Part shown: piece after piece, positions 8,908 to 39,292 of the stretch | Layout: every line of letters begins with the position of its first letter | Numbering within the stretch: the stretch's first letter is position 1 | Virus record (IMG/VR): IMGVR_UViG_3300029893_000021 | Span: 1-42,391 of that record | Strand: one strand, 5' to 3' | Length of the DNA: 42,391 bases | Source: a virus | Program-made: the position numbers and the translations under genes | Notes under the pieces: model-generated | Database searches by the model: none | Seen by the model: the letters and a program-made list of their open reading frames with translations, nothing else | What the model was told of the DNA's origin: nothing

Positions 8908-9339
8908 ATGGGAAATCTATCAGGTTTTTTATCTCAAAATGCACTAAAGGTTGAAAATGTTAAGCATATAGTTTCAAAGCGGTTTCTTGATGAAGATGGG
9001 AAACCCATACCTTGGGAAATTCGCTGCATCACTTCCACTGAAGATGAAGCTTTAAGAAAGGCTTCCACAAAACGTGTTCCTGTTCCTGGTAAAAGGAATC
9101 AGTTCACACAGGAAGTGGATTATAACTTGTATCTTGGAAAGTTGGCTTCAACGTGTACTGCTTACCCAAACCTTGATGATGCTGAACTTCAGAACAGTTA
9201 TGGGGTTATGGGTGCGGATGCACTTTTGAAAACCATGTTGACACCTGGGGAATATGCGGATTACCTGACCAAGATTCAAGAAGTAAATGGTTTTGAAGTC
9301 ACTTTTGAGGAATCGGTTGAAGAAGCAAAAAACTCATAA
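8908..9339 (+). CDS. xkdN: Tail assembly chaperone, short form (XkdN-like)
   Basis: This protein of about 143 residues belongs to the phage tail assembly chaperone group (XkdN, functional counterpart of lambda gpG). It binds the tape measure protein during tail assembly. It ends GAA GCA AAA AAC TCA TAA, so the stop lies one codon beyond a canonical A AAA AAC slippery heptamer. I chose ATG 8908 because GAAAGGA lies about 8 bases upstream; an in-frame ATG at 8899 overlaps that site. It sits between the tube and tape measure genes, the expected place. Confidence 0.85.
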   Translation: MGNLSGFLSQNALKVENVKHIVSKRFLDEDGKPIPWEIRCITSTEDEALRKASTKRVPVPGKRNQFTQEVDYNLYLGKLASTCTAYPNLDDAELQNSYGVMGADALLKTMLTPGEYADYLTKIQEVNGFEVTFEESVEEAKNS

Positions 9340-9524
9340 GTGAAGGTGATTTTGAAGCAAACATTGCTTATTATTGCCTTCACAAACTTCACATGATTCC
9401 TTCCCAATTCTTGCAACTTGACAGGCAAGAAAGGGCTTTTATTGTAGCTGCAATTGAAATAAAACTTGATGAAGAAAAGAAACAGCAAAAACAGATTAAG
9501 AAACCAAGTAGAAAATCAAGATAG
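8908..9524 (+). CDS. Tail assembly chaperone, -1 frameshift product
   Basis: This is the extended form made when ribosomes slip back one base at 9327-9333. After the slip the reading continues with codon 9333-9335 (CTC) and gives about 63 further residues, ending in a basic KKPSRKSR tail at TAG 9522-9524. The added part has a FEANIAYYCLHKLHMIPSQF segment typical of the downstream half of frameshifted chaperones in PBSX-like phages. The downstream frame has no good start of its own. The arrangement parallels lambda gpG/gpGT. The frameshift is inferred from sequence and not measured. Confidence 0.85.
9327..9333 (+). promoter_or_regulatory. Programmed -1 ribosomal frameshift site
   Basis: The heptamer A AAA AAC lies in the X-XXY-YYZ register of the chaperone frame, six bases before the zero-frame stop's last base. 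It is the most efficient class of -1 slippery site in bacteria. The terminator hairpin at 9525 is too far away to act as the stimulator, and I see no strong pseudoknot. Confidence 0.85.
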
Positions 9525-9558
9525 CAGGATGGTTGATTGCAGTGACCATCCTGTTTTT
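9525..9558 (+). terminator. Terminator before tape measure gene
   Basis: A perfect 9-bp GC-rich stem, CAGGATGGT/ACCATCCTG, with an 11-base loop is followed by TTTTTCTTTT. It begins right after the frameshifted stop codon and lies 22 bases before the tape measure ATG. Confidence 0.85.
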
Positions 9559-9580
9559 CTTTTGAAAGGCAGGTGAGAGC

Positions 9581-11713
9581 ATGGCAACAATTAAGACTGC
9601 AATTCAGGTTTATGATGGAATGTCACCTGGACTGAAAGCAATGAACAATGCCATGGGCATTGTCATCAATTCATTTGAATCCTTGCAAAATGTGTCCAGT
9701 AATGCAGTTGATAGTAATAGCATTAAAACTGCAAGGGATGAACTTGCAAAGGCACAATATGCTTTTGATAATGTGGAAAGAGAAATCAAGGAAGCTGATG
9801 CAGCACAAAGGAACTTCAATGATAATATCAGGAATGGTCAAGTGGCTGCTGATGGCTTATCAAGAAAAATTAAAATGATAGCTGGAACATTGATTGGTAT
9901 TGCTGGAATAAGAAAAGGAATCAGTGCCATTGGTGACTGGCTGGGGCTTGCTGATGTTCAAAACAGGGCTGAAACCCAATTAAAGACAGTCATGGGGCAA
10001 AGGATGGGAACAATTGATATTCAAGCTGTTCTTGATGCAACCAGCCTTCAACAATCAGTTGGGGTTGTGGGTGATGAAATCCAATTGCTTGGGGCACAGC
10101 AGGTGGCAACCTTCCTGAATTCAGAAGCTGCCCTGAAAACTTTACTTCCTGCCATGAATAACCTTGCTGTTCAACAAAATGGTGTTGCAGTGTCAGGTGA
10201 AAACATGGTGAACATTGGTAATATGATGGGTAAAGTTATGCAAGGTCAAGTTGGTGCTTTGTCAAGGGTTGGCATAACCTTCAGTGAAGCAGAAGAACAG
10301 GTTCTTAAATATGGAACTGAACTTGAAAGGGCTGACATGCTTGCCCAAATTATCACCAACAATGTTGGAAACATGAATGAAGCCATGGCAAACACCCCTG
10401 AAGGACAGATGCAACAAATGCGGAACACCTGGGGTGATATTAAAGAAACTGTTGGAAATCACTTGTATCCTGCTGTTCTGCGGTTCTTTCAAACATTGAA
10501 TTCAAACTTACCACAGGCTGAATCAATGATGATGGGCTTTGCAAATGCTGCAATCATTGTCATGGAAATCCTTGGGCGGGTTCTTAATGTGGCAACTTCG
10601 GTTTATGATTTCTTTTCAACCAACTGGTCATGGATTTCACCAATCATTTGGGGAATTGTAGCAGCACTGATGGCTTATGAAATAGCAACTAAAGGGGCTG
10701 CACTGGCAACAGGAATATTTACATTATTGAAAATGGCTGCTGTTCCTATATATGCACTGTTGACAGGTGCGACAATGGCAAATACAGCAGCACAATGGGG
10801 CTTAAATGCAGCACTGTATGCTTGCCCATTGGTATGGATAATCATTTTAATAATTGCACTGATAGCGGTATTTTATGCGGTTGTTGCTGCGGTGAACCAC
10901 TTTGCAGGAACTTCAGTCAGTGCAACAGGAATTGTCTTTGGGGCTTTTGCAACATTGGGTGCTTTCTTATGGAACTTGTTCCTTGGTGTGTTTGAATTGG
11001 TTCTTGGGGTTATCAATGCCCTGGTCAATCCATTCATCAAGCTGGCAAACTTCATTGGCAATGTATTTACAAACCCAATATCTTCAGTCATTTATATGTT
11101 CCAAGGAATGGCTGATGGGGTTCTTGCTGTTCTTGAAAAGATTGCAAAAGCAATGGATTTTGTCTTTGGTTCAAATATGGCGGGTACAATTTCAGGTTGG
11201 CGGTCAGGTTTGAAGGATATGGCAGATGCAGCAGTTGCCAAATATGCACCTGATGAAAACTATCAAAAGATAATGAATGAACTTGATTTAAGTGTTGATG
11301 ATTTTGGGCTTAAAAGATGGGCTTACAGTGATGCTTGGGAAACTGGTTATAAAGCTGGTGAAAACCTTGAAAGTAAGTTGAACTTAAACAGCATCCTTGG
11401 TGATGCTTCAAGCACATTGGATGCTTATGAGTTTGGAAACCATCTTGATGGAATTTACAATGGGGTTGATGATACAGCCTTAAACACAGCATCCATGAAG
11501 GATTCAATGCAAGCAACAGAAGAAGAATTGAAGTATTTGCGGGATATAGCAGAAAAAGAAGTGGTCAACCGCTTCACCACTGCTGAAATCAAGATTGATG
11601 CACCAGTAAGTGCAAATATTGCTTCAAATATGGACTTGGATGGTGTTGTGACCTACTTGGAAGAAAAGCTTTATGAAACAATGCAAGTTGCAGCGGAAGG
11701 GGTGCATGGATAA
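9581..11713 (+). CDS. Tape measure protein
   Basis: This 710-residue tape measure sets tail length and is probably ejected with the DNA. The N-terminal half is helical and alanine/glutamine-rich (residues about 1-320). Several strongly hydrophobic segments follow between about residues 320 and 500, including LVWIIILIIALIAVFYAVV near 420. The C-terminus is again helical. It follows the frameshifted chaperone, the standard order. At the usual 0.15 nm per residue, a tail of roughly 100 nm would be expected. Its last base overlaps the next ATG. Confidence 0.9.
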   Translation: MATIKTAIQVYDGMSPGLKAMNNAMGIVINSFESLQNVSSNAVDSNSIKTARDELAKAQYAFDNVEREIKEADAAQRNFNDNIRNGQVAADGLSRKIKMIAGTLIGIAGIRKGISAIGDWLGLADVQNRAETQLKTVMGQRMGTIDIQAVLDATSLQQSVGVVGDEIQLLGAQQVATFLNSEAALKTLLPAMNNLAVQQNGVAVSGENMVNIGNMMGKVMQGQVGALSRVGITFSEAEEQVLKYGTELERADMLAQIITNNVGNMNEAMANTPEGQMQQMRNTWGDIKETVGNHLYPAVLRFFQTLNSNLPQAESMMMGFANAAIIVMEILGRVLNVATSVYDFFSTNWSWISPIIWGIVAALMAYEIATKGAALATGIFTLLKMAAVPIYALLTGATMANTAAQWGLNAALYACPLVWIIILIIALIAVFYAVVAAVNHFAGTSVSATGIVFGAFATLGAFLWNLFLGVFELVLGVINALVNPFIKLANFIGNVFTNPISSVIYMFQGMADGVLAVLEKIAKAMDFVFGSNMAGTISGWRSGLKDMADAAVAKYAPDENYQKIMNELDLSVDDFGLKRWAYSDAWETGYKAGENLESKLNLNSILGDASSTLDAYEFGNHLDGIYNGVDDTALNTASMKDSMQATEEELKYLRDIAEKEVVNRFTTAEIKIDAPVSANIASNMDLDGVVTYLEEKLYETMQVAAEGVHG

Positions 11714-15945: not shown

Positions 15946-17682
15946 ATGGCAAGTTTCAATAATACTATTATTACAAGTAAAGGTCATGCTTTGATGGCAA
16001 AGATTGTGGCTGGAACAGCAACACCAAGCTTCACAAAAATCAGAACTTCAGACCATCAATATCCAGGGGGAACTGATTTTGAAGCACTGACAAGCCTTTC
16101 AGGGATAAGGCAGACAGTGGATGTTGCCAATGTAACAAAGGTTTCCCCTGCTAAAATCAAAGTAAGCGGGGTTTTCACAAATGCTTCCCTGGGAACAGGT
16201 TATTATGTCAGAAACATTGGGCTTTATGCGGTTGACCCACAAGAAGGGGAAATTCTTTATTCCATCACCACAGCAGTAACTGCTGATTGGATGCCCCCAC
16301 AAGGCGGTGCAGCAGCTTCAAGCATCCTGGTTGATATTGAAACAGTTGTTAGCAATGCAGATAATATCAATATGACTGTTGACCCAAATGCAACTGCAAC
16401 TGTTCAGATGGTCAATAACCTAGCTGCTGATATTGCTGATGTAAAAGGCTTTGTTGGTTACAATGAAGATGATATTTATGGTGTTGAAGTAAACTTTGCA
16501 ACCAATACTTTCAAAAGACTTGCTGGGGCAATCAATAAAACCCCTGGTGCTGATTTCAATGGAATTAAAGCCTTTGGTGGAAGAAAAAGATGCAACCTTG
16601 CTGATGACGGAACAGTAAATGCTTATTATGGTGATGTTGGATTCATTGAAGATGGTTCAAATGGTCAAGTCATGGTTGAACAGCCAAAGTTTTATTACAA
16701 GGTTGTTCCCTTGCAGCTTGATAAAATCACTGATGGCATTGGATACCATTTGAGAAAAGCAAGATATTATGTTTCTGACAAGCCAAAGGTTGGATTCAAA
16801 GTTCACCCTGCATTTGTTAGAAATGGGGTTGAAAAAGATAAGATTTTCCTTCCAGCTTATGAAGGTTCAACATATGACGTATCAGCAGGTGTGTATAACA
16901 TAAATGATGCACAAAATGTTGATTTTGCAACAACAAGTGGTGACAAACTTTCATCTATTGCAAATGCTAAACCAACATCAGGATTACAACAAACAGGTGC
17001 AACAAGAAATGGATTTAGAACAATTGCAGCAAATAGGGGTGAAGGATGGCAACAGAAGGATGCCCTTTGTGCTTCAGCTTCCCAAATGTTGATGATGATT
17101 GAATATAATGCTATGAACCTTCAAACTGCCCTTGGATTGGGTGTTGTGAATAAGGCTTCAGGTGAAGGTAATGAATCTGAACTTACTGGTGCAACTTCAA
17201 ACTTTGGTAATGCTTCAGGAATGGCTGCTGGAACAAATGGATTGGTTTCCATTAGTTACAGGGGTGAAGAAAACTTTTGGGGTAATATTTGGTCATGGAT
17301 TGATGGGTTAAATATTGAATGTTTTGGAATCCATGAAGCTTGGTGGGCTGACCATAGTTTTGCTGATAATATCAAAACATCACCATATAAAAATGCTGGA
17401 TTCACCATTGCAAAAGCAAATGGGTATATTTCAGCAATGGGTTGGTCAGAAGTATGTGATTTCTTATTCTTACCTTCTGAAGTCACTGGAAATTCAAGCT
17501 TACCTGTTGGTGATTATTTATGGCAAGACCACAGTGCAAGTGCTTGGCGGGTCGCTCGTTTTGGCGGTACTTGGAATGATGGCTTGACTGCTGGTGCTTT
17601 CTATTGGACTTTGGATAGTTCTTCGACTACTCGTTATCGGACTATCGGCGGCGGGGCGGTGTATGTACCCCAAGCTTCTTAA
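15946..17682 (+). CDS. DGR-diversified tail fibre / receptor-binding protein
   Basis: This 578-residue fibre has a conserved N-terminal baseplate-attachment domain (residues about 1-150; ITSKGHALMAKIVAG and GYYVRNIGLYAVDP). A C-terminal domain (about 200-578) resembles the formylglycine-generating-enzyme/C-type-lectin fold used by DGR targets (ENFWGNIWSWIDGLN and the end AGAFYWTLD). The last 45 residues are the variable repeat. The lectin fold displays the varied residues on its receptor-binding face, so this is the host-recognition protein. The next genes are the template-type locus and a reverse transcriptase, which supports this reading. Confidence 0.9.
   Translation: MASFNNTIITSKGHALMAKIVAGTATPSFTKIRTSDHQYPGGTDFEALTSLSGIRQTVDVANVTKVSPAKIKVSGVFTNASLGTGYYVRNIGLYAVDPQEGEILYSITTAVTADWMPPQGGAAASSILVDIETVVSNADNINMTVDPNATATVQMVNNLAADIADVKGFVGYNEDDIYGVEVNFATNTFKRLAGAINKTPGADFNGIKAFGGRKRCNLADDGTVNAYYGDVGFIEDGSNGQVMVEQPKFYYKVVPLQLDKITDGIGYHLRKARYYVSDKPKVGFKVHPAFVRNGVEKDKIFLPAYEGSTYDVSAGVYNINDAQNVDFATTSGDKLSSIANAKPTSGLQQTGATRNGFRTIAANRGEGWQQKDALCASASQMLMMIEYNAMNLQTALGLGVVNKASGEGNESELTGATSNFGNASGMAAGTNGLVSISYRGEENFWGNIWSWIDGLNIECFGIHEAWWADHSFADNIKTSPYKNAGFTIAKANGYISAMGWSEVCDFLFLPSEVTGNSSLPVGDYLWQDHSASAWRVARFGGTWNDGLTAGAFYWTLDSSSTTRYRTIGGGAVYVPQAS
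17548..17667 (+). repeat. DGR variable repeat (VR)
   Basis: This encodes fibre residues about 535-574 and aligns without gaps, at a fixed offset of 200 bases, to 17748-17860. There are 18 mismatches in the first 113 bases. Nearly all central mismatches fall in the first two positions of codons ending in T (act, cgt, aat, gat, agt), the signature of adenine-directed mutagenesis of AAT codons. The 3' end (ggcggcggggcggt, 17647-17660) is GC-rich, as expected of an IMH-type element, and differs from the other copy by G where that copy has A. Confidence 0.85.
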
Positions 17683-18020: not shown

Positions 18021-19121
18021 ATGAAAAGACATGGTAATTTGTATAGTAAAATTTATGAAATGGACAATCTGAAGCTTGCACATAGAAATGCAAGAAAAGG
18101 AAAGGGGTGGTATAAAGAAGTAAAGATGGTCAATTCAGATGAAGAACATTATCTGAAGATACTACAAGAACAATTGATGAATAAGACCTACAAAACTTCT
18201 GAATATGAAACCTTTCTGAAAACAGATGGTGTGAAGGAACGTGAAATTTACAAGTTACCTTACTTCCCTGATAGAATTTGTCAGTGGGCAATCATGCAGG
18301 TCATAGAACCCATTTTAATAAAGAACTTTACAAAGGATACTTATTCAGCCATTCCAGGAAGGGGAATTCATCCAGTTGTTAAACAGTTAAGGGGGTATCA
18401 CAAGAAGATTGGAGATAAAGAAGATTATGTTCCAAGTATCTTCATGTCAGACCCTATGGGAACACAATACACCCTGAAGCTTGATGTGAAAAAGTTTTAT
18501 CCAAACATTGACCATGCTATTCTGAAAGCCAAATACAGAAGGCTTTTCAAGGATGATGCCCTTCTTTGGTTGCTGGATGAAATCATTGATTCAACCCCTG
18601 GTGATATTGGAATTCCTATTGGAAATTATTTATCACAGTATAGCGGGAACTTTTACCTTTCATCTTTTGACCACTGGATTAAAGAAGTTAAGGGTGTAAA
18701 ACATTACTTCAGGTACATGGATGACATTGTGATATTTGGAAGCAACAAAGAAAGATTACATCAGTTAAAACATGACATTGGAGAATATTTCAGAACTGAA
18801 TTGAAGTTAAGCATCAAGGAAAACTGGCAGGTGTTTCCCACTTTCATCAGGGGTGTTGATTATGTTGGATACAGGTTCTTCTTTGATTATACTTTGTTGA
18901 GAAAATCAACCTGCAAGAATTTCAAGAAGAAAATGACCCAAATTCAAAAGAAGTGCCTGAATGATGGTCAGATGAATTTTTCTGAATGGTGTTCAGTCAA
19001 TTCTTATAAAGGTTGGTTGATGTGGTGTGATAGTTACAGGCTTTCAGAAAAGTATATTACACCAGTTCAACCCTTTGCAGATGATTATTATGAAAAATAT
19101 GTGAAAAGAAAGGTGGATTGA
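18021..19121 (+). CDS. DGR reverse transcriptase
   Basis: This 366-residue reverse transcriptase is of the retroelement class found in diversity-generating systems. Catalytic aspartates lie in LDVKKFYPNIDH (D155) and YMDD (residues 232-235). The motif IPIGNYLSQ (198-206), with SQ in place of the retroviral QG, is the mark of DGR enzymes. It would copy the template RNA into cDNA with errors opposite adenines and thereby rewrite the fibre's variable repeat. No separate accessory gene (avd) is visible beside it. A GGTGGGG sequence precedes ATG 18021. Confidence 0.93.
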   Translation: MKRHGNLYSKIYEMDNLKLAHRNARKGKGWYKEVKMVNSDEEHYLKILQEQLMNKTYKTSEYETFLKTDGVKEREIYKLPYFPDRICQWAIMQVIEPILIKNFTKDTYSAIPGRGIHPVVKQLRGYHKKIGDKEDYVPSIFMSDPMGTQYTLKLDVKKFYPNIDHAILKAKYRRLFKDDALLWLLDEIIDSTPGDIGIPIGNYLSQYSGNFYLSSFDHWIKEVKGVKHYFRYMDDIVIFGSNKERLHQLKHDIGEYFRTELKLSIKENWQVFPTFIRGVDYVGYRFFFDYTLLRKSTCKNFKKKMTQIQKKCLNDGQMNFSEWCSVNSYKGWLMWCDSYRLSEKYITPVQPFADDYYEKYVKRKVD

Positions 19122-21706: not shown

Positions 21707-21721
21707 TCACTTGGTTGGCAA
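21692..21721 (-). terminator. Inverted repeat at integrase stop
   Basis: TTGCCAACC (21692-21700) and GGTTGGCAA (21713-21721) form a perfect 9-bp stem with a 12-base loop that contains the integrase stop codon. There is no T-run, so it may be an integrase binding site rather than a terminator. Confidence 0.4.
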
Positions 21722-22933
21722 GCTTGCTTTTTCAAATATATCCACTGACTGTTCTGCCATTTTTTCAGTTGCATGGGTGTAAGTGTCAAGGGTGGTTTCA
21801 ATTTTGGAATGACCAAGCCTGGATTGAACATCCTTGATGTTTGCCCCATTCTCAATCAAAGTGGTTGCATGGGTATGCCTTAATGAATGGAAGTTGAAAA
21901 GGATGCCCAAACTGTAATGAATGACCCTTGAAGCATATTTGAAGGTGTCAGGGGTTACCATGCTTCCATCTTCTTTGGTGCAAACCATTTGAAGCTGTTC
22001 CATAACACCAGGCTTTATTGAAAGCGGAAGGGAACATATTCTTCTTAATGATTCTTTCCCATTCATTTCTTCAGCTTCATATTGCTGAATATAGTGCTGT
22101 CCATACTTCAAGCGGTTTTCCATTTGCCATTTCCTTTGTTGCCTTAAAGCATCAATCAAAGTTTTCCCAATCTTAATTTTCCTTACTGATGATTCTGTTT
22201 TGGTTGAACCAAAATACCAGTTGGACTTTCTCTTATAAACAATCTTGATGATGTCAATTGTTCCTTTGTCCAGGTCAATATCATCCCAAGTCAAAGCCAT
22301 GACTTCACCAATTCTGCATCCAGTGTAATACCCAATCATGATGGGGATGTAATAGGTTGTTCCCAAAGGAAACCTTTCAATTATAGTTTTGAATTCATCA
22401 TTGGTGATAACCTTGTGATTGATTTCAGTTTTAGAATGTTCATACTTTGGATATTTCACATAAGCCATTGGTGATTCTTTAATAAACTTACAAGGATGAA
22501 CTGCATACTTCAAAGAACCGCTTAAAACAGTAATGATGTTGGTTAAGTGGTTCTTACTTATTCCAGTTAAATACTTACTGTTCACAAATTCCTGAAGCAT
22601 TGCAGGTGTCAATGATTTCAACTTGTAAATACCAAAGGTAGGTTTGATGTGATTCCTGATGATGATTTCATATCCTGATTGGGTATTGTATTTACAGTTA
22701 ACCTTCACATAATTCTTGAACCAATAATCCAAGTAGTCAGAAACAGAAATTTCAGTTGGTTCAAAGTGCAATCCAGCATTGTTGTATTCCTGAAGTGCTA
22801 CCCTTAAAGCTGCTTCAGCTTCCTTCTTGGTTCTCCCCCCAACTCTTTCAATCCTTTTTCTTTTCCCATCCACATTGGATGCTTCAAAAGAGTAATACCA
22901 TTTAGTTCCCCTTTTTCTCACATGACCTTCCAT
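21707..22933 (-). CDS. int: Tyrosine integrase
   Basis: This 408-residue site-specific recombinase inserts the phage into the host chromosome. It has an arm-binding N-terminal domain (about 1-60, starting with an RKRGTKWYYSFEA strand), a SAM-like core-binding domain (about 65-165) and a catalytic domain. The visible catalytic residues are R in TGCRIGE (near 215), H349 and R352 in HSLRHTHAT, H375 in RLGHS, and the nucleophile Y385 in LDTYTH. I chose ATG 22933 because AGAAAGGA lies about 8 bases upstream on its strand; an in-frame ATG 18 codons earlier lacks a site. Its upstream region is the TTCAAGAT repeat array. Confidence 0.93.
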   Translation of the reverse strand: MEGHVRKRGTKWYYSFEASNVDGKRKRIERVGGRTKKEAEAALRVALQEYNNAGLHFEPTEISVSDYLDYWFKNYVKVNCKYNTQSGYEIIIRNHIKPTFGIYKLKSLTPAMLQEFVNSKYLTGISKNHLTNIITVLSGSLKYAVHPCKFIKESPMAYVKYPKYEHSKTEINHKVITNDEFKTIIERFPLGTTYYIPIMIGYYTGCRIGEVMALTWDDIDLDKGTIDIIKIVYKRKSNWYFGSTKTESSVRKIKIGKTLIDALRQQRKWQMENRLKYGQHYIQQYEAEEMNGKESLRRICSLPLSIKPGVMEQLQMVCTKEDGSMVTPDTFKYASRVIHYSLGILFNFHSLRHTHATTLIENGANIKDVQSRLGHSKIETTLDTYTHATEKMAEQSVDIFEKASLPTK

Positions 22934-22960
22934 AATATCATTCCTTTCTTTTATTTGCGG

Positions 22961-23228
22961 TTCAAGATGGTTCAAGATAAGGTTCAAGATAAAAAATCAT
23001 CTTGAACCGCTTCAAAGCACTGATATATAAGGCTTTTTTGCTTATCGGTTCAAGAAGTTCAAGATAACCCTTCTTATTTCCTATTTTTTAAGATATTTAT
23101 ATCAAGTCACATTAAAAAGTTATAATCATTGAGAAATAACAATTCATCTTGAACCATCTTGAACCTTCCCATAAATAAAGGCTTTCATCTTGAACTTTAT
23201 CTTGAACCCATGTTGAACCCATCTTGAA
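22961..23228. repeat. TTCAAGAT/ATCTTGAA repeat array A
   Basis: The 300 bases between the integrase start and the next leftward gene contain no gene. TTCAAGAT occurs on the plus strand at 22961, 22971, 22983 and 23058. The complement ATCTTGAA occurs at 22999, 23146, 23156, 23187, 23199 and 23221, with a near copy at 23210. Neighbouring copies are 10-12 bases apart, about one helical turn. The two orientations flank an AT-rich centre, and 22983-23006 is a perfect 8-bp inverted pair around AAAAAATC. A regulator-binding region or replication origin is possible. Confidence 0.85.
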
Positions 23229-23233
23229 CTTTT

Positions 23234-23604: not shown

Positions 23605-24240
23605 TTAAATTACATTGCTTTGAAAAGCAATGGCTTTGCCTAAAATTCTAATGTCATTAAGTTCTTCACCTTTGTAAACCATTGGCTTATAAGATGGATT
23701 TTCAGCAATCAAGATTATTTCAGAATCCTTCTTGTAAACCCTTTTCAATGTTGCTTCATCATCTATAAGTACAGCAGCAATTTCACCATCATTCACATCA
23801 GGTTGCTTTCTAATGAAAACAATATCACCATCACAAATTCTTGCATTTACCATGCTGTCACCTTGAACCTTCAAACAAAAATCAGCACGAATATCAGCAC
23901 CAGCTTCAACATAGCTTTCAAAGTTTTCATCAGCGAATACTGGTTCACCCGCTGCAATAGTTCCCAACAAAGGGAACTTTCTTGTTTCTATTCTCAAAAT
24001 ATTATCAGGGTATTTAGTTATTACCCTTTCCATTGGTACATCATGACCCATCAACCAAGCTTCACTTACATCCAAGGCTTTGGCAATCAAATAAATTCCC
24101 TTCTGCTTTGGTTCATATTTTCCTGAATAATATTGACTTATAGCTGACTTCCCAAGGTTTGTCTTTTCCACCAGGTCAACTTGCTTTATGTTCCTTATAT
24201 CCATGGCTTTTCTCATTCTACTTGCAAAAGATTCTTTCAT
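23605..24240 (-). CDS. CI-like repressor (HTH plus S24 peptidase domain)
   Basis: This 212-residue lysogeny repressor has an N-terminal HTH_3 domain (about 1-65; NIKQVDLVEKTNLGKSAISQ recognition region) and a C-terminal LexA/S24 domain. The latter has an Ala-Gly cleavage site (IAAGEP, about residue 95), the nucleophile serine in QGDSMVNARI and the lysine in DDEATLKRVYK. It should be inactivated by RecA-stimulated self-cleavage, so the prophage is DNA-damage inducible. ATG 24240 is preferred over the in-frame GTG 24252 because GGAAGGG lies just upstream of it. It is divergent from the early operon. Confidence 0.9.
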   Translation of the reverse strand: MKESFASRMRKAMDIRNIKQVDLVEKTNLGKSAISQYYSGKYEPKQKGIYLIAKALDVSEAWLMGHDVPMERVITKYPDNILRIETRKFPLLGTIAAGEPVFADENFESYVEAGADIRADFCLKVQGDSMVNARICDGDIVFIRKQPDVNDGEIAAVLIDDEATLKRVYKKDSEIILIAENPSYKPMVYKGEELNDIRILGKAIAFQSNVI

Positions 24241-24278
24241 CTTTATCAGCACCCTTCCATTAATATCCTTTAATAAAT

Positions 24279-25897: not shown

Positions 25898-26125
25898 ATG
25901 GATGATGTACTTTACACAGTTTCAGAAGTTGCAAAACTGATTAAGTGCAACACCAATTATGTGTATGACTTGATAAGAAGGGGGTTGCTTCCAGCCTTAA
26001 AGCTTGGAAGTTATAAGGTCAGGAAGGCTGCATTGCTGGAATTCCTTGAAAAGTATGAAGGTAAAGACCTTACTGACCTTAACAATATTGTGGAATTAGA
26101 TGAAAGGATGTGTAAACATGAGTGA
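25898..26125 (+). CDS. Excisionase-type HTH protein
   Basis: This 75-residue protein has a winged-helix HTH_17 fold: YTVSEVAKLIKCNTNYVYDL, then RRGLLPALKLGSYKVRKAAL. This is the excisionase/MerR-like family. It could direct prophage excision together with the integrase, although it is encoded 3 kb away in the early operon. ATG 25898 follows AAGGGGTG. It overlaps the next gene by 8 bases. Confidence 0.75.
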   Translation: MDDVLYTVSEVAKLIKCNTNYVYDLIRRGLLPALKLGSYKVRKAALLEFLEKYEGKDLTDLNNIVELDERMCKHE

Positions 26126-27002
26126 AGTTAAAGGTTTCAAAGTTTTTAACCCTGATTGGACATGTAGAGGATTTCAGTATGAAGTTGGTCAGACTTATGA
26201 AGAAAATGTGATTCCAATGGTTTGTGACAGGGGGTTGCATTTCTGCAAACAGGCAAGGGATTGTTTCAATTATTACAGCTTTGACCCAAGCAACAAGGTT
26301 GCTGAAGTTATTGCCCTGGGGGAAGTTGCTGAAGAAGGTGACAAGTGCAGCACCAACAAGCTTCAGATTGTCAGGGAAATTTCATGGGAAGAACTTTTGA
26401 CCCTTGTTAATACTGGAAAAGGGAATTCAGGTCATTCGAACAGCGGTGATTCGAACAGCGGTGATTCGAACAGCGGTAATCGGAACAGCGGTGATTCGAA
26501 CAGCGGTAATCGGAACAGCGGTAATCGGAACAGCGGTGATTCGAACAGCGGTAATCGGAACAGCGGTGATTGGAACAGCGGTAATCGGAACAGCGGTAAT
26601 CGGAACAGCGGTGATTCGAATCAAGGAGACTTTTGCACTGGTGACTTTAATATTACTGACCATGAAACTGGATGCTTCTGCACTGAAGAACACAAGATAA
26701 GATTCTTTGACCAAGAATCAGAAATGACTTTCAGGGAATGGCGAAACAGTGAAGCTTATGGAATTCTTTGCAGAATACCTTTTGAACCTACAAGATGGAT
26801 TTGGGCAGATGATATGACTGATGAAGAAAAAGCTTCACACCCTGAATATAAAACAACAGATGGTTACTTGAAGATTTGTGATACCGATAAGGCTTTCCTG
26901 ACCTGGTGGGATTCCTTAAATAATAGAGAAAAGGAAATCATAAAGAGTATTCCAAATTTCAATGCTAAAAAATTCCTGCAAATATCAGGAATAAGGGTGT
27001 AA
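26118..27002 (+). CDS. DUF7666 and pentapeptide-repeat protein
   Basis: This 294-residue protein has three parts. An N-terminal DUF7666-type domain covers about residues 1-100 (FKVFNPDWTCRGFQYEVGQT and CDRGLHFC). Thirteen five-residue repeats of the form NSGxx follow (about 103-167), with x mostly DS or NR. A C-terminal globular part includes TFREWRNSEAYGILCRI. Pentapeptide repeats fold into a square beta-helix and can mimic DNA. Several such proteins protect or inhibit gyrase, but a role here is unknown. The preceding gene overlaps it by 8 bases. Confidence 0.8.
   Translation: MSEVKGFKVFNPDWTCRGFQYEVGQTYEENVIPMVCDRGLHFCKQARDCFNYYSFDPSNKVAEVIALGEVAEEGDKCSTNKLQIVREISWEELLTLVNTGKGNSGHSNSGDSNSGDSNSGNRNSGDSNSGNRNSGNRNSGDSNSGNRNSGDWNSGNRNSGNRNSGDSNQGDFCTGDFNITDHETGCFCTEEHKIRFFDQESEMTFREWRNSEAYGILCRIPFEPTRWIWADDMTDEEKASHPEYKTTDGYLKICDTDKAFLTWWDSLNNREKEIIKSIPNFNAKKFLQISGIRV
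26424..26618 (+). repeat. 15-bp tandem repeat array in pentapeptide gene
   Basis: Thirteen in-frame 15-base units occur, mostly aacagcggtgattcg or aacagcggtaatcgg. The two unit types alternate irregularly, which indicates expansion by slippage or unequal crossover. The unit number is likely to vary between strains. Confidence 0.95.
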
Positions 27003-27005
27003 TGT

Positions 27006-28241
27006 ATGCAGCTTTTTCCACACCAGCAAAAAGCACTGGATGAAACCAGGGATTTCAACAGGGTTGCTTATTACTTGGATATGGGTTTAGGTAAGACCTT
27101 TGTTGGAAGTGAAAAGCTGAAAACCTTTGGAACAAAGCAAAATCTACTGATTTGTCAGAAGTCAAAGGTGGATGATTGGATTGAACACTTTCAAACCTAT
27201 TATGAAGGCTTAAACATCATTGATTACACCAAGAAGGGCGCTGTTCCAAGTAAAGGAATCACTATCATCAACTATGAACTAACCTTCAGAAGAAAAGAAC
27301 TGCTTGATTTACAGAACTTTTCACTGATGCTTGATGAAAGTTCCATGATACAAAATGAAACAGCAAAGCGGTCAAAGTTTACCCTGAAGATGCAGCCTGA
27401 TAATGTGATTCTTCTTTCAGGAACACCAACAGCAGGGAAATATGAAAACCTGTATTCACAGCTTAAATTGCTTGGCTGGAAGATAAGCAAAGACCTTTAC
27501 TGGAAGCAATACATTGAAACTGAATGGGTTGAAGAAGATGGATTCTTTAGAAAGGATGTTGTTGGTTATAAGAATGTTGACAGGTTGAAGCAAAAGCTGC
27601 GGGAACATGGTGCAATCTTCATGAAGTCAGAAGAAGTGGTTGACCTTCCTGAACAGATTGACAACAAGGTTATGATTGGAACAACCAAGGAATACAGAAA
27701 GTTCATGAAAAGCAGAATTATCACTGTTCAAGGTAAAGAAATGATTGGTGATAGTGCCCTGACTAAAAGGTTATATGCAAGGATGCTTTGCGGTCATTAC
27801 AATCAGAATAAGCTGGAAGCCTTCAGGGATTTGGTTGATTCAACTGATGATAGATTAATTGTTTTTTATAACTTCAATGAAGAACTGGCAGAATTGGTGA
27901 ATTTGGTGAAGGACAAGCCTGTTTCCATCATCAATGGTTCAATAAAGGATTTGTCAGCTTATGAAACACATGAAAATTCAATAACTTTTGTTCAATATCA
28001 GGCGGGTTCTTCAGGGCTTAATTTACAGAAGGCGAATAAGATGATTTATTTTACACTTCCACAATCTTGTGAGAATTACATGCAAAGTAAAAAGCGAATT
28101 CACAGGATTGGTCAAAACAAAAGGTGCTTTTACTATTATCTTTTAGTAAGCGGAAGTGTTGAAGAAGATATATTAAAAGCATTGGAAATGGGGGTTGATT
28201 ATACTGATGAATTATTCAAAGCCTATGAGAATCAATTATAA
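27006..28241 (+). CDS. SNF2-family DNA helicase
   Basis: This 411-residue superfamily 2 DNA translocase is of the short phage SNF2 type. Motifs in order are DMGLGKT (Walker A, residues 25-31), DESS (110-113, a variant of DEAH), SGTPT (138-142) and KRIHRIGQ (motif VI, 363-370). The family accompanies D5-type primases and VRR-NUC nucleases in temperate phages of Bacillota, as here. It probably remodels DNA or protein-DNA complexes during replication or recombination. ATG 27006 overlaps nothing, and the next gene begins inside its 3' end. Confidence 0.9.
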   Translation: MQLFPHQQKALDETRDFNRVAYYLDMGLGKTFVGSEKLKTFGTKQNLLICQKSKVDDWIEHFQTYYEGLNIIDYTKKGAVPSKGITIINYELTFRRKELLDLQNFSLMLDESSMIQNETAKRSKFTLKMQPDNVILLSGTPTAGKYENLYSQLKLLGWKISKDLYWKQYIETEWVEEDGFFRKDVVGYKNVDRLKQKLREHGAIFMKSEEVVDLPEQIDNKVMIGTTKEYRKFMKSRIITVQGKEMIGDSALTKRLYARMLCGHYNQNKLEAFRDLVDSTDDRLIVFYNFNEELAELVNLVKDKPVSIINGSIKDLSAYETHENSITFVQYQAGSSGLNLQKANKMIYFTLPQSCENYMQSKKRIHRIGQNKRCFYYYLLVSGSVEEDILKALEMGVDYTDELFKAYENQL

Positions 28242-32145: not shown

Positions 32146-33936
32146 ATGCTGTTTTATGACTTTGAAGTGTTCAAATATGATTGGCTGGTTGTGGTCATTG
32201 ATGTAACAAATAAAAAAGAACATGTCATTGTGAATGATGTGGATAAACTTCAAGAACTTTATGATGACAACAAGCATGATATTTGGGTTGGGTATAATTC
32301 CAGGAACTATGACCAATACATTTTGAAAGCTTTGTTGTGTGGCTTTGATGCAAAGAAAATAAATGATTACATCATTGTCCAGGGAAAACAAGGGTGGAAA
32401 TTTTCAAGTCTTTTAAACAATATCCCATTGAACAATTATGATATAATGACCAGCTTTCATGGTTTGAAGCAGCTTGAAGGATTTATGGGTAACAGCATCA
32501 GGGAAAGTTCAGTTCCATTTGATATTGATAGAAAACTGACACCTGCTGAAATAGAAGAAACAGTTAAATATTGTCGGCATGATGTTGAACAAACCATTGA
32601 AGTATTTATTCAAAGGAAAGAAGAATTTGAAAGCCATATTTCTTTGATTAAAGCCTTCAAATTGCCGCTTTCATATATATCCAAAACTAAAGCACAGCTT
32701 TCAGCAATTATCCTTGGGGCAAACAAGAAAACACATAATGATGAATTTGATATTCAATTTCCTGATACTTTGAGAATTAGAAAGTACAAAGAAGTATTGA
32801 ATTGGTATAAGAACCCTTTAAACAGGGATTACAGCAAGACATTTGAATTAGAAGTGGCTGGTGTTCCACATGTGTTTGCTTGGGGTGGGTTGCATGGTGC
32901 GCTTCCCAAATACAGCGGAGAAGGTTATTTCATCAATATTGATGTGGCTTCCTATTATCCAGCATTGATGATTGAATACAACTTCATTAGCAGGAATATT
33001 TCAAACCCAAATAAGTACAGGGAAATCAGGGATGAAAGATTAAGGCTGAAGGCAGAAAAGAACCCAATGCAAGCACCTTATAAAATCGTTCTGAACAGCA
33101 CTTATGGTGCAATGAAGGATAAGAATAATGCTTTATATGACCCAAGGCAAGCAAACAATGTTTGTGTTGGTGGTCAACTTCTGCTGCTGGATTTGATTGA
33201 AATGCTTGAAGGTCATTGTCAATTGATTCAATCAAATACTGATGGTTTGATTATCAAGCTATTCAAGGAAGATGATTATGAACTAATTGATGATATTTGC
33301 TATGAGTGGGAACAAAGAACCAGGATGCAGCTTGAATTTGAATCTTACAAGAAAATGTTTCAAAAAGATGTAAACAACTATGTGATTGTTGATTTTGACG
33401 GTGGTTATAAGTCAAAAGGTGCTTATGTAAAAAAATGGACTAAAAAAGATGAAAACAAAAAAGAAATTGATGACCTTCTTGACTATGATTGTGTAATTTT
33501 ACGTGAATCATTGGTTAATTACTTTCTTCATGGTATTCATCCAAAACAAACTATTTATGAATGTAATGATTTAAGGAAGTTTCAAAAGATTGTAAAGGTA
33601 AGCAGCAAATATTTATATGCTTTATACAATCCAACGGTCACTGAAGAAAAAGTTCGTGATGAAGATGGAAAATTGAAAACAGTTAAAGTGTTCACTGGTG
33701 GTGAGATTCAAAAGGAAAAATGTTTCAGGGTATTTGCTTCAAAGCTGGAATCTGAAGGCAGTATTTACAAGGTGAAAAATCTTCAGAAGAATCCTGAAAA
33801 GTTCCAGGATACACCTGAACATTGTTTCTTTATCAATGATGATGTAACAAATGTAAAGATACCAAGCAAGCTTGATAAAAACTGGTATGTTGATTTGGCA
33901 ATTAAGAGGTTGAAAGATTTTGGGGTGATGATATGA
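32146..33936 (+). CDS. Family-B-like DNA polymerase
   Basis: This 596-residue replicative polymerase has an exonuclease domain with DFE (residues 5-7, Exo I), YNSRNYD (Exo II) and YCRHD (Exo III). The palm has motif A DVASYYP (266-272), motif B KIVLNSTYG (313-321) and motif C QSNTDG (about 362-367). The usual motif C is YxDTDS. Here the first catalytic aspartate position is Asn and the second, D366, is kept. The enzyme is short, near the size of protein-primed polymerases, but no terminal-protein gene is visible and a primase is encoded next door. Confidence 0.85.
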   Translation: MLFYDFEVFKYDWLVVVIDVTNKKEHVIVNDVDKLQELYDDNKHDIWVGYNSRNYDQYILKALLCGFDAKKINDYIIVQGKQGWKFSSLLNNIPLNNYDIMTSFHGLKQLEGFMGNSIRESSVPFDIDRKLTPAEIEETVKYCRHDVEQTIEVFIQRKEEFESHISLIKAFKLPLSYISKTKAQLSAIILGANKKTHNDEFDIQFPDTLRIRKYKEVLNWYKNPLNRDYSKTFELEVAGVPHVFAWGGLHGALPKYSGEGYFINIDVASYYPALMIEYNFISRNISNPNKYREIRDERLRLKAEKNPMQAPYKIVLNSTYGAMKDKNNALYDPRQANNVCVGGQLLLLDLIEMLEGHCQLIQSNTDGLIIKLFKEDDYELIDDICYEWEQRTRMQLEFESYKKMFQKDVNNYVIVDFDGGYKSKGAYVKKWTKKDENKKEIDDLLDYDCVILRESLVNYFLHGIHPKQTIYECNDLRKFQKIVKVSSKYLYALYNPTVTEEKVRDEDGKLKTVKVFTGGEIQKEKCFRVFASKLESEGSIYKVKNLQKNPEKFQDTPEHCFFINDDVTNVKIPSKLDKNWYVDLAIKRLKDFGVMI

Positions 33937-33973: not shown

Positions 33974-35857
33974 ATGCAGTTGTTCAAAGGTTATGTGGAA
34001 ACCAAAGATAAAAAGTGCATTGAGAAATTCAAGGGAAGAACCGATTTGAAAACCTTTGAACAGGTTCAATCACTTCCTGAATTTGCTGGCATCCTTGGGG
34101 ATGAAACCATCCTGATTGATATTGATGACTTTGAATCAAGTGAAGTTATATTCAAGATAGTCAAGGCATTAAAGTTGAAATGCAGAGTTTACAAAACAAG
34201 CAGGGGGAAGCACTTTCTGTTTAAGAATAAGGGTGTGACAACCAACAAAACCAAATGTAAGCTTGCAATTGGTTTGACTGCTGACATTAAGCTTGGAATC
34301 AGAAATTCATATTCAATCCTGAAGTTCAACAACAAAAACAGGGAAATTCTTTATGACACCCCTGAAGATAAAATTCAGGAACTTCCAAGATGGATGACAC
34401 CTGTTAGAAGTAGCTTTGAATTTCTTGACATGGAAGCTGGGGATGGTAGAAACCAAGCTTTATTTAATTACATCCTGACACTTCAATCTGCTGACTTTAC
34501 AGTTGAAGAAGCAAGGGAAACAATCAGGTTGATAAACAGCTATGTTTTGAAAGTTCCATTGAAGGATTCTGAACTTGATGTAGTGCTGCGGGATGATGCT
34601 TTCAAGAAGCCAATTTTCTTCAAAGGAACAACATTCTTGTTTGATAAGTTTGCAACCTATATCAAGAACAATAACCACATCATCAAGATAAATAATCAGC
34701 TTCACATCTATAAAGATGGTGTTTATGTTGATGGTCAAGCTGAAATTGAAGCTGAAATGATAAGACACATTAGTAATTTAAACAGAGCAAAAAGAAATGA
34801 AGTTATGGCTTACCTGAACCTGTTAATAAGGGATAATACACCAACTTCAGAAGCCAATTTAATTGCTTTCAGGAATGGGGTTTATAACATCAGGGATGAT
34901 TCATTTGTGCCATTTTCACCTGACATTATCATCACCAATAAAATCAATTGGGATTACAACCCTGCTGCTTATTCTGAATTGGTTGATAAAACCTTAAATA
35001 AAATGGCTTGCCATGATAACCAAGTCAGGATGCTTCTTGAAGAAGCCATTGGATATTGCTTATACAGAAGAAATGAATTGGGAAAAGCCTTCATTCTGAT
35101 TGGTGATAGGTCAAACGGAAAATCAACCTTCCTGGATATGGTGAAAACAATGCTTGGAGATGAAAATATTGCATCCCTTGACCTTAAAGAATTGGGTGAT
35201 AGATTCAAAACTGCTGAATTGTTTGGGAAGCTTGCAAACATAGGTGATGATATAGGTGATGAATTTATTGCCAATGCAGCGGTATTCAGGAAGTTGGTTA
35301 CTGGTGACAGAATCAGTGTTGAACGAAAAGGGCAAGACCCATTTGAATTCAATAACTATTCAAAGATGCTGTTTTCAGCAAACAATATTCCAAGGATGAA
35401 GGACAAAACTGGTGCAGTTCAAAGAAGGTTGACAATCATCCCATTTGATGCAAAGTTCAGTGTGGATGACCCTGATTATAGACCTTACATAAAGTATGAA
35501 CTGCGGGAACAGGAATGTATTGAATACATGATACTTCTTGGAATTGAAGGACTTAAAAGGGTTATTGAAAATCAGAAGTTTACCCAATCAACCAGGGTGG
35601 AAAAGGAACTGGAAGAATATGAAGAATCCAACAATCCAATTATTGGGTTCTTCAAGGAAGTTGGTCATGATGAAATTGAAAATGAACCAACCAAGGATGT
35701 TTATAAGAGATACCAGGAATACTGCCTGGCTAACAATCTTCAACCAATGTCAAACATTGAATTTTCTAAGCAGGTTAAGAAGAAATTTAATTTTGAAATA
35801 GCGGATAAGAAGATTGATGGAAAAAAGTACAGAATTTTTGTGCGAGGGGTGAATTAA
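33974..35857 (+). CDS. D5-type primase-helicase
   Basis: This 627-residue replication protein has an N-terminal primase-like domain with DIDD (49-52) and a C-terminal SF3 helicase. The D5_N region (about 270-370) precedes Walker A GDRSNGKST (377-385). Walker B-like LANIGDD follows near 420, and the sensor-1 asparagine lies in LFSANNIP. It would unwind DNA and prime synthesis at the phage origin. ATG 33974 follows AAAAGGGGGTG. The polymerase ends 37 bases upstream. Confidence 0.9.
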   Translation: MQLFKGYVETKDKKCIEKFKGRTDLKTFEQVQSLPEFAGILGDETILIDIDDFESSEVIFKIVKALKLKCRVYKTSRGKHFLFKNKGVTTNKTKCKLAIGLTADIKLGIRNSYSILKFNNKNREILYDTPEDKIQELPRWMTPVRSSFEFLDMEAGDGRNQALFNYILTLQSADFTVEEARETIRLINSYVLKVPLKDSELDVVLRDDAFKKPIFFKGTTFLFDKFATYIKNNNHIIKINNQLHIYKDGVYVDGQAEIEAEMIRHISNLNRAKRNEVMAYLNLLIRDNTPTSEANLIAFRNGVYNIRDDSFVPFSPDIIITNKINWDYNPAAYSELVDKTLNKMACHDNQVRMLLEEAIGYCLYRRNELGKAFILIGDRSNGKSTFLDMVKTMLGDENIASLDLKELGDRFKTAELFGKLANIGDDIGDEFIANAAVFRKLVTGDRISVERKGQDPFEFNNYSKMLFSANNIPRMKDKTGAVQRRLTIIPFDAKFSVDDPDYRPYIKYELREQECIEYMILLGIEGLKRVIENQKFTQSTRVEKELEEYEESNNPIIGFFKEVGHDEIENEPTKDVYKRYQEYCLANNLQPMSNIEFSKQVKKKFNFEIADKKIDGKKYRIFVRGVN

Positions 35858-36770: not shown

Positions 36771-36842
36771 ATTTTTTTATCTTATCAGTTCAGCATATTG
36801 AAGTAAAAGTTAAGTAAGTTAAACAGAAAGGAGATGAATACT

Positions 36843-37832
36843 TTGAAACTATTAAGCTTATTTAGTGGAATTGGGGCATTTGAAAAAGCTTTGAAAAATT
36901 TGAATGTTGATTATGATCTGGTTGCCTATTCTGAAATTGATAAATATGCTTCCAAAGCTTATTCCCTAATTCATGAAGTTGACGAATCAAAGAATATAGG
37001 TGATATTACAAAAATAGATCCAAGGGATATTTCAAAACCAGTTGACATCATAACATATGGTTTCCCTTGTCAAGATATATCAGTTGCGGGGGTTCAACAA
37101 GGATTATTTAATGATGATGGTTCAAAGACAAGAAGTGGATTATTCTTTGATGCTTTAAAGATTATTGAAGGTACAAAACCAAAGATTGCAATTGCCGAAA
37201 ATGTTAAGAATTTAGCGGGTAAAAGGTTTGAAAAAGAATTTGATATTGTACTTGATTCATTAGAAAGTGCAGGGTACAACAATTACTTCAAAGTTCTTAA
37301 TGCAAGAAATTATGGTGTTCCACAGAACAGAGAGAGAGTGTTCATAGTAAGTATTAGGAAGGACATTGACACTGGACTATTTGAATTCCCTGAAGCAATT
37401 GAATTAAAGTTAAAGTTAAAAGATTTTGTTGATTTTGATAATGAATTTATTGTCCCGGACCATATATTGAATTCCTTTAACAGTAAAAGTGGTGACTTTG
37501 GTAAAAGATTCAAAACCCAAAATGGTGACAATTATTCCATGTGTATAACAACAAAACCAAATTGGGCAGTAATCACTAATAATTATTACACTGATGATTT
37601 AAGCACTTACACTATAAGTGAGGTTGTCAATAATAAAATAACGGTTTATGCTAATTCACCAAAAATGAATTTTAACTTGATGGGTTTTACGGATAAGGAT
37701 GTTGATTTATTACTTGAAGCTGGAATTTCAAACAATCAGCTTTACAAGATGGCCGGTAATTCAATTGTTGTGGATGTGGCTGAAGAAATTCTTTGTCAAT
37801 TACTTGATGATAAAAATGAAATTTGGGTTTGA
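36843..37832 (+). CDS. C5-cytosine DNA methyltransferase
   Basis: This protein of about 329 residues transfers methyl to C5 of cytosine in a target sequence. Motif I is LSLFSGIGAFE at the N-terminus, motif IV GFPCQDIS (C76 is the nucleophile), motif VI AENVKNL (E119), motif VIII QNRERVFIV, and motif X near MAGNSIVVDVAEEIL. TTG 36843 is preferred because GAAAGGAG ends 9 bases upstream; ATG 36834 directly abuts that site. No restriction gene is beside it, so it is an orphan. Its codons contain the only two GATC sites of the whole window (36915, 37017). Confidence 0.92.
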   Translation: MKLLSLFSGIGAFEKALKNLNVDYDLVAYSEIDKYASKAYSLIHEVDESKNIGDITKIDPRDISKPVDIITYGFPCQDISVAGVQQGLFNDDGSKTRSGLFFDALKIIEGTKPKIAIAENVKNLAGKRFEKEFDIVLDSLESAGYNNYFKVLNARNYGVPQNRERVFIVSIRKDIDTGLFEFPEAIELKLKLKDFVDFDNEFIVPDHILNSFNSKSGDFGKRFKTQNGDNYSMCITTKPNWAVITNNYYTDDLSTYTISEVVNNKITVYANSPKMNFNLMGFTDKDVDLLLEAGISNNQLYKMAGNSIVVDVAEEILCQLLDDKNEIWV

Positions 37833-37851
37833 AGAAAGGAAGGTGTGTCAA

Positions 37852-38424
37852 ATGTTAAGGTTAGAAGATAGAATTGAAAACTTTGAAAGTATGATGGGCA
37901 AATACCTGCCAACTGATTTAATTGAATGGTTAAAGGATAATGGGTTTTTCACAGCACCAGCATCCAAAGGTCATCATGGAAATTATGAAGGCGGGTTGTT
38001 TGACCATTGTTACCAGGTGGCAGAAACCTTGAAACAGCTTACCAAAGCAAACAGGTTGCAGTGGGAAAATCTGCGGTCACCTTATGTGGTTGGAATGTTT
38101 CATGACCTTTGCAAGATTGATACTTACAAGGTGGTTGTGGATGAACCTGGGAAAGAAATGTTTGGTGGTGAGGTCAAAGGAAGAAGCATCAAGATTGAAT
38201 ACAATGATGACTTCTTGATTGATGGTCATGGTGATAAGTCAGTGATTTACCTTGCATCACATATGAGATTGACACCTGAAGAAGTAATATGTATCAGGTG
38301 GCACATGGGGGCGTTTGATGAAAAGCAGAACTGGAAGTATTATTCAGCAGCAGTCAGGAAATATCCTAATGTTTTATGGACACATACAGCGGATATGATT
38401 ACTTCACAAATTATGGGAGTGTAG
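37852..38424 (+). CDS. HD-domain phosphohydrolase
   Basis: This 190-residue HD hydrolase has metal ligands visible as LFDHCYQVAETL (H), GMFHDLCKID (HD) and LASHM plus IRWHMGA further on. The domain usually cleaves phosphates from nucleotides; a dNTPase or nucleotidase role is likely in a phage replication operon. ATG 37852 follows GAAAGGAAGG. The preceding frame is open upstream, but lacks a site. It is the last gene before repeat array B. Confidence 0.8.
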   Translation: MLRLEDRIENFESMMGKYLPTDLIEWLKDNGFFTAPASKGHHGNYEGGLFDHCYQVAETLKQLTKANRLQWENLRSPYVVGMFHDLCKIDTYKVVVDEPGKEMFGGEVKGRSIKIEYNDDFLIDGHGDKSVIYLASHMRLTPEEVICIRWHMGAFDEKQNWKYYSAAVRKYPNVLWTHTADMITSQIMGV

Positions 38425-38425
38425 C

Positions 38426-38740
38426 GGTTCAAGATGAATGTAAAAGTTCAAGATGGGTTCAAGATGAAAAAAATCATCTTGAACCGCTATAAATGCAGTA
38501 GTAGCAAGGGTTTAAGGGGTGCGGTTCAAGATGGTTCAAGATGAATTCAAAGTTCTTAATAAATTAACTAAAATATTATATAAGAACTTATTTAATGAAA
38601 AATACCTTAAATATTAAAGTATATAGGTAATCATCTTGAACTTGTTGAACCGACACCTTGAAAAGTATTGTAAATAAAGGGTTTGAAGCGGTTCAAGATA
38701 AAAAAATCATCTTGAACCAACTTGAACCATCTTGAACCGA
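38426..38740. repeat. TTCAAGAT/ATCTTGAA repeat array B
   Basis: The 334 bases between the HD gene and the late regulator hold no gene. TTCAAGAT occurs at 38428, 38447, 38458, 38525, 38535 and 38692, and ATCTTGAA at 38476, 38633, 38709 and 38729. Near copies lie at 38642 and 38719. Spacings of about 10-11 bases recur. Two perfect inverted pairs around A-rich centres (38458-38483 and 38692-38716) match the one in array A. An AT-rich stretch lies between (38555-38630). It probably controls the late regulator gene or forms part of an origin. Confidence 0.85.
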
Positions 38741-38758: not shown

Positions 38759-39292
38759 ATGGAAAATGTAAAATTGATTATTAAAGATACAGTTTCAGAA
38801 ATGATTTGTGAGTTAAGGAAGCAGGGGTTAATGAAGAACAATAAGCAGACAGCATTTCAGAAAACAGAACACTTACTTTATAATTACATGAATTTCAAGC
38901 AGGTCATTGTTGATAAGGAAAATGCAATTGAGTTCATCAGGCAAGCGGGTATTCAGAAAAGAAGTAAAAGTATTATCAGCTTTACAGGAAACCATCAGCT
39001 TGATACCAGGACTGATAATGAAAAAGCTGAAGAACAGGTTGAAGCACTTGAAAATTCAATTATCATAACCAAAAGGTACATAGAAATAATTGACACTGCT
39101 ATTTCCAAGCTTGAAAATGACAATTATTATGACTTGATAAGGTTAAGATATTTTGAAGGAAAGACCAGGGAAGAAGTTGCAGATTATTTCAGTGTTGATG
39201 TTGCAACCATCAGCAGGAATAAGAACCGCTTAATTAACACATTGAAAATTCATTTGTTTTCAGATGAAGTGATATGTGAAATATTCAGGTAA
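38759..39292 (+). CDS. ArpU/sigma-like late transcription regulator
   Basis: This 177-residue protein has an N-terminal helical part and a C-terminal sigma-70 region-4-like helix-turn-helix (residues about 115-170): YDLIRLRYFEGKTREEVADY and FSVDVATISRNKNRLINTL. The family (ArpU/RinA-like) activates late genes in temperate phages of Gram-positive bacteria and sits right before the small terminase, as here. AAAGG and GTG precede ATG 38759. It lies directly downstream of the repeat array, which suggests the array regulates it. Confidence 0.85.
   Translation: MENVKLIIKDTVSEMICELRKQGLMKNNKQTAFQKTEHLLYNYMNFKQVIVDKENAIEFIRQAGIQKRSKSIISFTGNHQLDTRTDNEKAEEQVEALENSIIITKRYIEIIDTAISKLENDNYYDLIRLRYFEGKTREEVADYFSVDVATISRNKNRLINTLKIHLFSDEVICEIFR

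Follow-up and report, generated by a model that had tools for sequence, protein, structure and literature searches.

Two separate iteron arrays serve one primase-helicase, alpha, in Enterobacteria phage P4 (NC_001609), where crr (4291–4590) lies just downstream of the alpha gene, which ends at 4636, and ori (9086–9809) lies beyond the early genes, on their other side. Both regions are required in cis, and the P4 record labels crr as 'cis required region'. Origins of phage-inducible chromosomal islands (PICIs) always contain two iteron sets around an AT-rich region (PMC6092414), and the helicases of Staphylococcus aureus pathogenicity islands (SaPIs) and of staphylococcal cassette chromosome mec (SCCmec) recognize iterons directly downstream of their own genes via a C-terminal domain (PMC7581432). 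Bacillus phage SPP1 possesses two origins about 13 kb apart in a genome of about 44 kb, similar in organization (direct repeats and an AT-rich DNA-unwinding element) and served by one initiator, gp38, which at oriR was proposed to stall forks and trigger a theta-to-sigma switch (PMC6316719). We describe here two arrays, A (22959–23230) and B (38426–38738), in a viral sequence of 42,391 nucleotides (IMG/VR record IMGVR_UViG_3300029893_000021, positions 1 to 42,391; this whole stretch is termed the window), which also encodes a D5/superfamily 3 (SF3) primase-helicase, Rep (33974–35857, + strand). Comparison across some 60 related viruses makes it highly likely that A and B are PICI/P4-type iteron origin arrays bound by Rep and not operators of the integrase (int) and late genes.

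Layout of the two arrays

Sites were counted as GGTTCAAGAT with up to one mismatch unless stated to be exact. The window contains 35 such sites against 4.4 in shuffled sequences (standard deviation 2.3, maximum 12), and 23 of them fall inside A or B; the exact word GGTTCAAGATG occurs 11 times, always within one of the two arrays, and its reversed control word has no match in either. A first-pass annotation had already placed the same repeat family in both arrays, at positions confirmed here, and ascribed to them a shared site, spacing, and hairpin; we find the hairpins at 22981–23008 in A and at 38456–38485 and 38690–38718 in B. The likeness proved to exceed that description, with orientation and spacing agreeing along the arrays. 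Array A displays 12 iterons in the order +++-++------ at spacings of 10, 12, 18, 48, 9, 90, 10, 31, 12, 11, and 11, and array B displays 11 in the order +++-++-+--- at 19, 11, 20, 47, 10, 100, 57, 19, 10, and 10, giving the common layout [+++ -], ~47 bp, [++], an AT-rich core of ~80–100 bp, [--], ~47 bp, [+ ---]. Each array, to which no strand is assigned, spans about 280 bp and forms a near-palindrome overall, with tandem sites 9–12 bp apart, opposed pairs 18–20 bp apart, and linkers of 47–48 bp. A motif-free layout scan of the window scored B at 87 and A at 80, with 59 for the next-best place and also for the best place over three shuffled genomes.

The core of A (23066–23145), a probable unwinding element, comprises 80 bp at 79% A+T against 62% for the window, and that of B (38543–38632) comprises 90 bp at 84%; across 48 arrays the core is 83% A+T against 60% genome-wide. 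A weakly conserved palindromic element with the approximate consensus AAACCCTTG-N6-CAAGGGTTT is found in the left linker of B (38486–38522) and recurs as AAATAAAGGGTTTGAAGC in the right linker (38653–38689). This element of the ~47-bp linkers also appears in phages with other iterons and, twice as AAACCACTTGATACCGTTGGCGTTATT, in the PICI Javan621, a satellite phage with a comparable region after its primase in which the linker is repeated; it is possibly the site of a second factor or of a bend.

Like P4, the window phage has its iteron in two arrays that stand apart, one of them close to the gene of the primase-helicase and the other far from it. The type 1 repeats of P4 ori (---+-- at 10, 11, 22, 43, and 10 in the record's annotation) match the half-array of the window (+++-++ at 10–19, 11–12, 18–20, 47, and 9–10), and the P4 iteron, GGTGAACAG, is similar in length to that of the window. 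P4 differs in being a satellite whose crr consists of two 120-bp direct repeats and whose ori represents one half of the near-palindrome, whereas both copies in the ~42-kb window phage are full arrays. In SaPI and PICI origins, too, two sets of iterons flank an AT-rich region (79–84% A+T in the cores of A and B), and the origin is located downstream of a Rep with an iteron-recognizing C-terminal domain (PMC7581432, PMC6092414). In the window, B lies downstream of the rep gene, at a distance of 2.6 kb, and A does not; the SF3/D5 helicase carries a corresponding C-terminal domain, for which covariation predicts recognition of the iteron. Unlike their island counterparts, window-type arrays occur in full-size phages and are usually doubled. 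At the putative SCCmec Cch2 origin, a D5-type helicase binds iterons just downstream of its own gene via its C-terminal domain (PMC7581432), but the site is single and holds only three short direct repeats. SPP1 oriL and oriR are paired much as A and B are (about 15.5 kb apart in about 42 kb here), but gp38 does not belong to the SF3 primase-helicases and depends on a distinct helicase of the DnaB type, the phage is lytic, and oriL lies inside the initiator gene. The papers searched, which include little of the subscription literature, contain none that describes iteron origins in pairs for temperate phages; this negative is weak, and the newness of the paired arrangement is provisional.

Paired arrays among relatives

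We collected 80 relatives of the D5/SF3 primase-helicase and scanned 43 contigs without assuming word or place. Because these contigs come from metagenomes and some are incomplete, the numbers with one and with two arrays are approximate, and three contigs (G058, G049, and G059) are ambiguous. What the whole-contig scans recovered was chiefly a pair of arrays in each phage, located −9 to −15 kb and +1 to +8 kb relative to the rep gene. Both arrays, with the phage's own word, are present in about 27 of the 43 contigs, bearing out the conserved pairing for which the first-pass annotation had suggested looking; the adverse pattern it had named, relatives keeping the genes with one array or neither, is seen in a minority, as about 13 of the 43 show only B and several of these are too short to show A. 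A hairpin-pattern search of viral contigs yielded 30 loci, the majority with the spacing of the window. In many of these the late array sits between the replication genes and an ArpU-like regulator or terminase, and of the first nine relatives, taken as whole contigs, seven carry a second array at the repressor/integrase end. An exact-word search of 84,980 species genomes gave few relatives and mostly chance palindromes (L067, from Eubacterium aggregans, and L056 are real, L076 perhaps), and blastn of the exact word against annotated phages gave no relatives.

Downstream of the primase-helicase gene of the relatives the layout is constant and the word variable: GGTTCAAGAT, GGTTCAAGGT, TGTTCAAGGT, AAGTCAAGAT, TGGAACAGAT, TGTAACAGAT, TGTTACTGAT, TGGATAAGAT, GGTACCAGAT, CCTTCAACAT, and more. 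When eight words were set against 31 phages, the resulting matrix was near-diagonal, allowing for related words; G053, for instance, has 12 sites of its own word against 1–4 of the others, and G032 has seven against 1–3. Both arrays of each phage share its variant word, which points to one trans-acting factor, different between phages, that reads both. The sharing makes it very probable that a single protein binds A and B alike, and the earlier proposal holds to the extent of one protein for both sites.

The proposed coupling of integration to late expression fared differently. On this view the arrays are operators, and a repressor or activator of the phage binds both and so coordinates transcription of int with that of the late genes. 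Each array does lie just upstream of int or of the ArpU-like gene, in the direction of transcription, and an integrase adjoins A in all 12 relatives whose outer open reading frame (ORF) was tested. However, in three phages (G047, G048, and G053) A persists with no adjoining integrase found, before an early block led by an SNF2-type helicase, and because some relatives keep A in this way the reading of an int/late decision fails. B also occurs without A, the divergent promoter between repressor and early genes in the window has no GGTTCAAGAT site, and the word tracks the winged helix of Rep; the sites are thus not tied to the int and late promoters and to the DNA-binding domain of a regulator, as those of an operator array would be, and the layout matches that of characterized origins. 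Operators are a very unlikely explanation of the arrays, although Rep bound there could affect the int and late promoters secondarily.

Single-array relatives retain B (G021, G027, G055–G057, Wanderer, and PI-Sepi-HH2). An array with yet other words directly follows the rep gene in Paenibacillus phage Wanderer, Staphylococcus phage PI-Sepi-HH2, and G055–G057 (L119, L121, and L122); in the last three contigs, where no second array was found, the array, with the word AGTCCC(G/A)GAT, begins within the last codons of the primase-helicase gene. Wanderer also carries a GTGAAGGTTTTTCCTTCA-like palindrome cluster before its primase operon (L101, 36189–36455), which is unrelated to the origin array.

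The near-palindromic form and ~280-bp length of A and B might suggest a mobile repeat, akin to a miniature inverted-repeat transposable element (MITE), or recombination sites, and in one relative (G005, L084) the two arrays (contig positions 16637–16933 and 30060–30345) match at 100% over 273 bp when one of them is inverted. In the other phages, however, A and B are only about 60–77% alike, a divergence similar to that between same-word arrays of different phages. The positions are fixed relative to genes, the scans returned no further copies, and no array was seen inserted at varying places and flanked by target duplications, which leaves a mobile or recombinational nature most improbable. 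Recent duplication as the cause of the matching words fits G005 and was rejected elsewhere. Since the divergence between A and B is there like the one between phages, the match of words appears to be kept by selection or occasional conversion; gene conversion between A and B does happen at times, without explaining the general match. The inverted identity of the G005 arrays would permit inversion of the early block by recombination.

Covariation of the iteron with the Rep winged helix

Rep matches Pfam D5_N (9.7e-13), DUF5906 (3.7e-24), and Pox_D5 (1.5e-7), and its closest solved structure is PDB 7ola, 'DNA primase' (E 9.5e-46), which we take to be SaPI5 Pri-Rep. Its C-terminal winged helix (35627–35854, + strand; amino acids 552–627) contains residues 595 and 613, which covary with iteron bases 9 and 1. 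Comparison of motif and Rep in 56 deduplicated phages, over 459 protein columns and with average-product-corrected couplings, placed the top four couplings all in this domain: I595 with base 9, K613 with base 1, R579 with base 9, and R620 with base 7. Among 56 protein segments, partial correlation with the distance between motifs is strongest for 606–627, at −0.61 (median 0.03, standard deviation 0.20). At residue 613, Lys accompanies G at base 1 in 27 of 27 scorable phages, Arg accompanies T in 4 of 4, and Thr accompanies A in 4 of 5; Gly at 595 occurs with G as the ninth base in all six phages that have it. In the AlphaFold model of Rep (pLDDT 83), residue 595 opens the recognition helix (594–605), and residue 613 lies in the beta-hairpin wing (607–624). 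The Rep proteins of L136 and L139 are 99% identical in the N-terminus and core and 100% in the helices of the winged helix, with 55% identity in the wing, and their words differ (TGGAACAGAT and TGTTACTGAT); L135 and L142 combine the L139 word with much of the L139 wing on a different backbone. We infer that the iteron is recognized by the C-terminal winged helix of Rep, and the pattern is explicable with no protein other than Rep.

The same covariation bears on whether the arrays act as RNA, in the form of hairpin leaders or antitermination sites in through-running transcripts. The repeats do fold into hairpins, and each array lies where an operon ends, ahead of the following gene. Hairpin pairing alone, however, needs no agreement among same-strand copies, and here tandem and opposed copies all change together, and with a DNA-binding domain, so that a role as RNA is hardly credible.

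Several observations weigh against Rep-bound origin arrays, a reading for which the evidence is comparative throughout. The covariation is partly phylogenetic, and phylogeny inflates such statistics; N-terminal and core segments 100–121 and 254–275 also reach −0.4 and −0.36, much of the lower coupling ranks consists of N-terminal and core columns, and a simple wing code fails for G055–G057 (TGTTCAAGAT predicted, AGTCCCGGAT seen). The window's B is not directly downstream of the rep gene, and four-fold GC skew singles out no origin, the early block falling below the late block in 8 of 24.

Roles of the arrays and gene context

Taken together, the domains of Rep and its PDB 7ola match, the SaPI, SCCmec, and PICI literature, and the P4 ori half-array and crr indicate with high probability that B is a PICI/P4-type origin. 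Rep would read the 10-base iteron through its C-terminal winged helix and assemble on the inverted site sets flanking the core, whereupon the AT-rich core would melt and two helicases would load. B, downstream of the rep gene, would be the ancestral and probably the main origin. Array A would be a second array for the same Rep at the opposite edge of the early block; the repressor-to-HD block does lie between A and B, as the first-pass annotation had it. A may serve as a second origin, as in SPP1 oriL/oriR, or as a cis partner, as in P4 crr, and possibly also as the place where a fork meets bound Rep. Since single-array relatives keep B, A looks derived or auxiliary, and its apparent absence from several relatives makes a universal need for it improbable.

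Alternatively, B may be the only origin and A a non-firing Rep site for titration, handcuffing, or fork stalling that starts rolling-circle replication. The retention of B by single-array relatives favors this possibility, as does gp38 at SPP1 oriR, the proposed fork staller (PMC6316719), but A retains the full origin layout including the AT-rich core, which is more than titration needs. We consider it somewhat unlikely, and it refines, without opposing, the assignment of both arrays to Rep. Pairing or looping of arrays is known for other iteron systems and would be compatible with A and B, as the first-pass annotation had suggested. Its alternative of segregation found no support, no par gene having been recognized among the proteins examined, although no search was aimed at par genes. 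With A and B as origin arrays bound by Rep, we tentatively propose that A acts as a switch, Rep at A pairing with B or stalling its fork to bring about the change from theta replication to concatemers. A large group of full-size phages would then possess P4/PICI-type origins in duplicate, both complete and diverging together, one at either edge of the early block. The natural series of Rep winged helices and iterons may constitute a readable SF3 recognition code.

Array A lies between a tyrosine integrase gene (21707–22933, − strand; Pfam Phage_integrase 2.3e-25) and the operon of an S24/helix-turn-helix (CI-type) repressor (23605–24252, − strand; Pfam Peptidase_S24 1.9e-29). The replication module starts with an SNF2-type helicase (27006–28241, + strand; Pfam SNF2-rel_dom 2.1e-15) and includes a DNA polymerase (32146–33936, + strand) with a weak Pfam DNA_pol_B match (6e-4) and a homologue in every relative first mapped. 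Adjoining B is the gene of an ArpU/sigma-like late transcriptional regulator (38759–39292, + strand; phrog_36 transcriptional regulator 1.1e-17). The ORF listed for the HD-type protein (37699–38424) overlaps the end of a C5-methyltransferase ORF (36834–37832); the HD-type protein probably starts close to 37822. Apart from A and B, the window has a single repeat cluster, the 15-bp coding repeats of a pentapeptide-repeat gene with DUF7666 (26100–27002). A reverse transcriptase gene (18021–19121; Pfam RVT_1 8.5e-13) lies downstream of a tail-type gene (15946–17682), the two probably representing a diversity-generating retroelement and its variable protein.

Iteron origins of this type have been described for satellites (P4 and PICIs). 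In the present set they are found in phages of full size, most of which bear an integrase, and usually as two matching arrays; the pairing bears on how early replication is separated from late replication in such phages. With about a dozen natural variants of the iteron and the Rep winged helices that match them, SF3 initiator specificity becomes directly testable, L136 and L139 being a natural pair whose difference is almost confined to the wing, and the matching of word and wing allows an uncultured phage to have its origin located from sequence.
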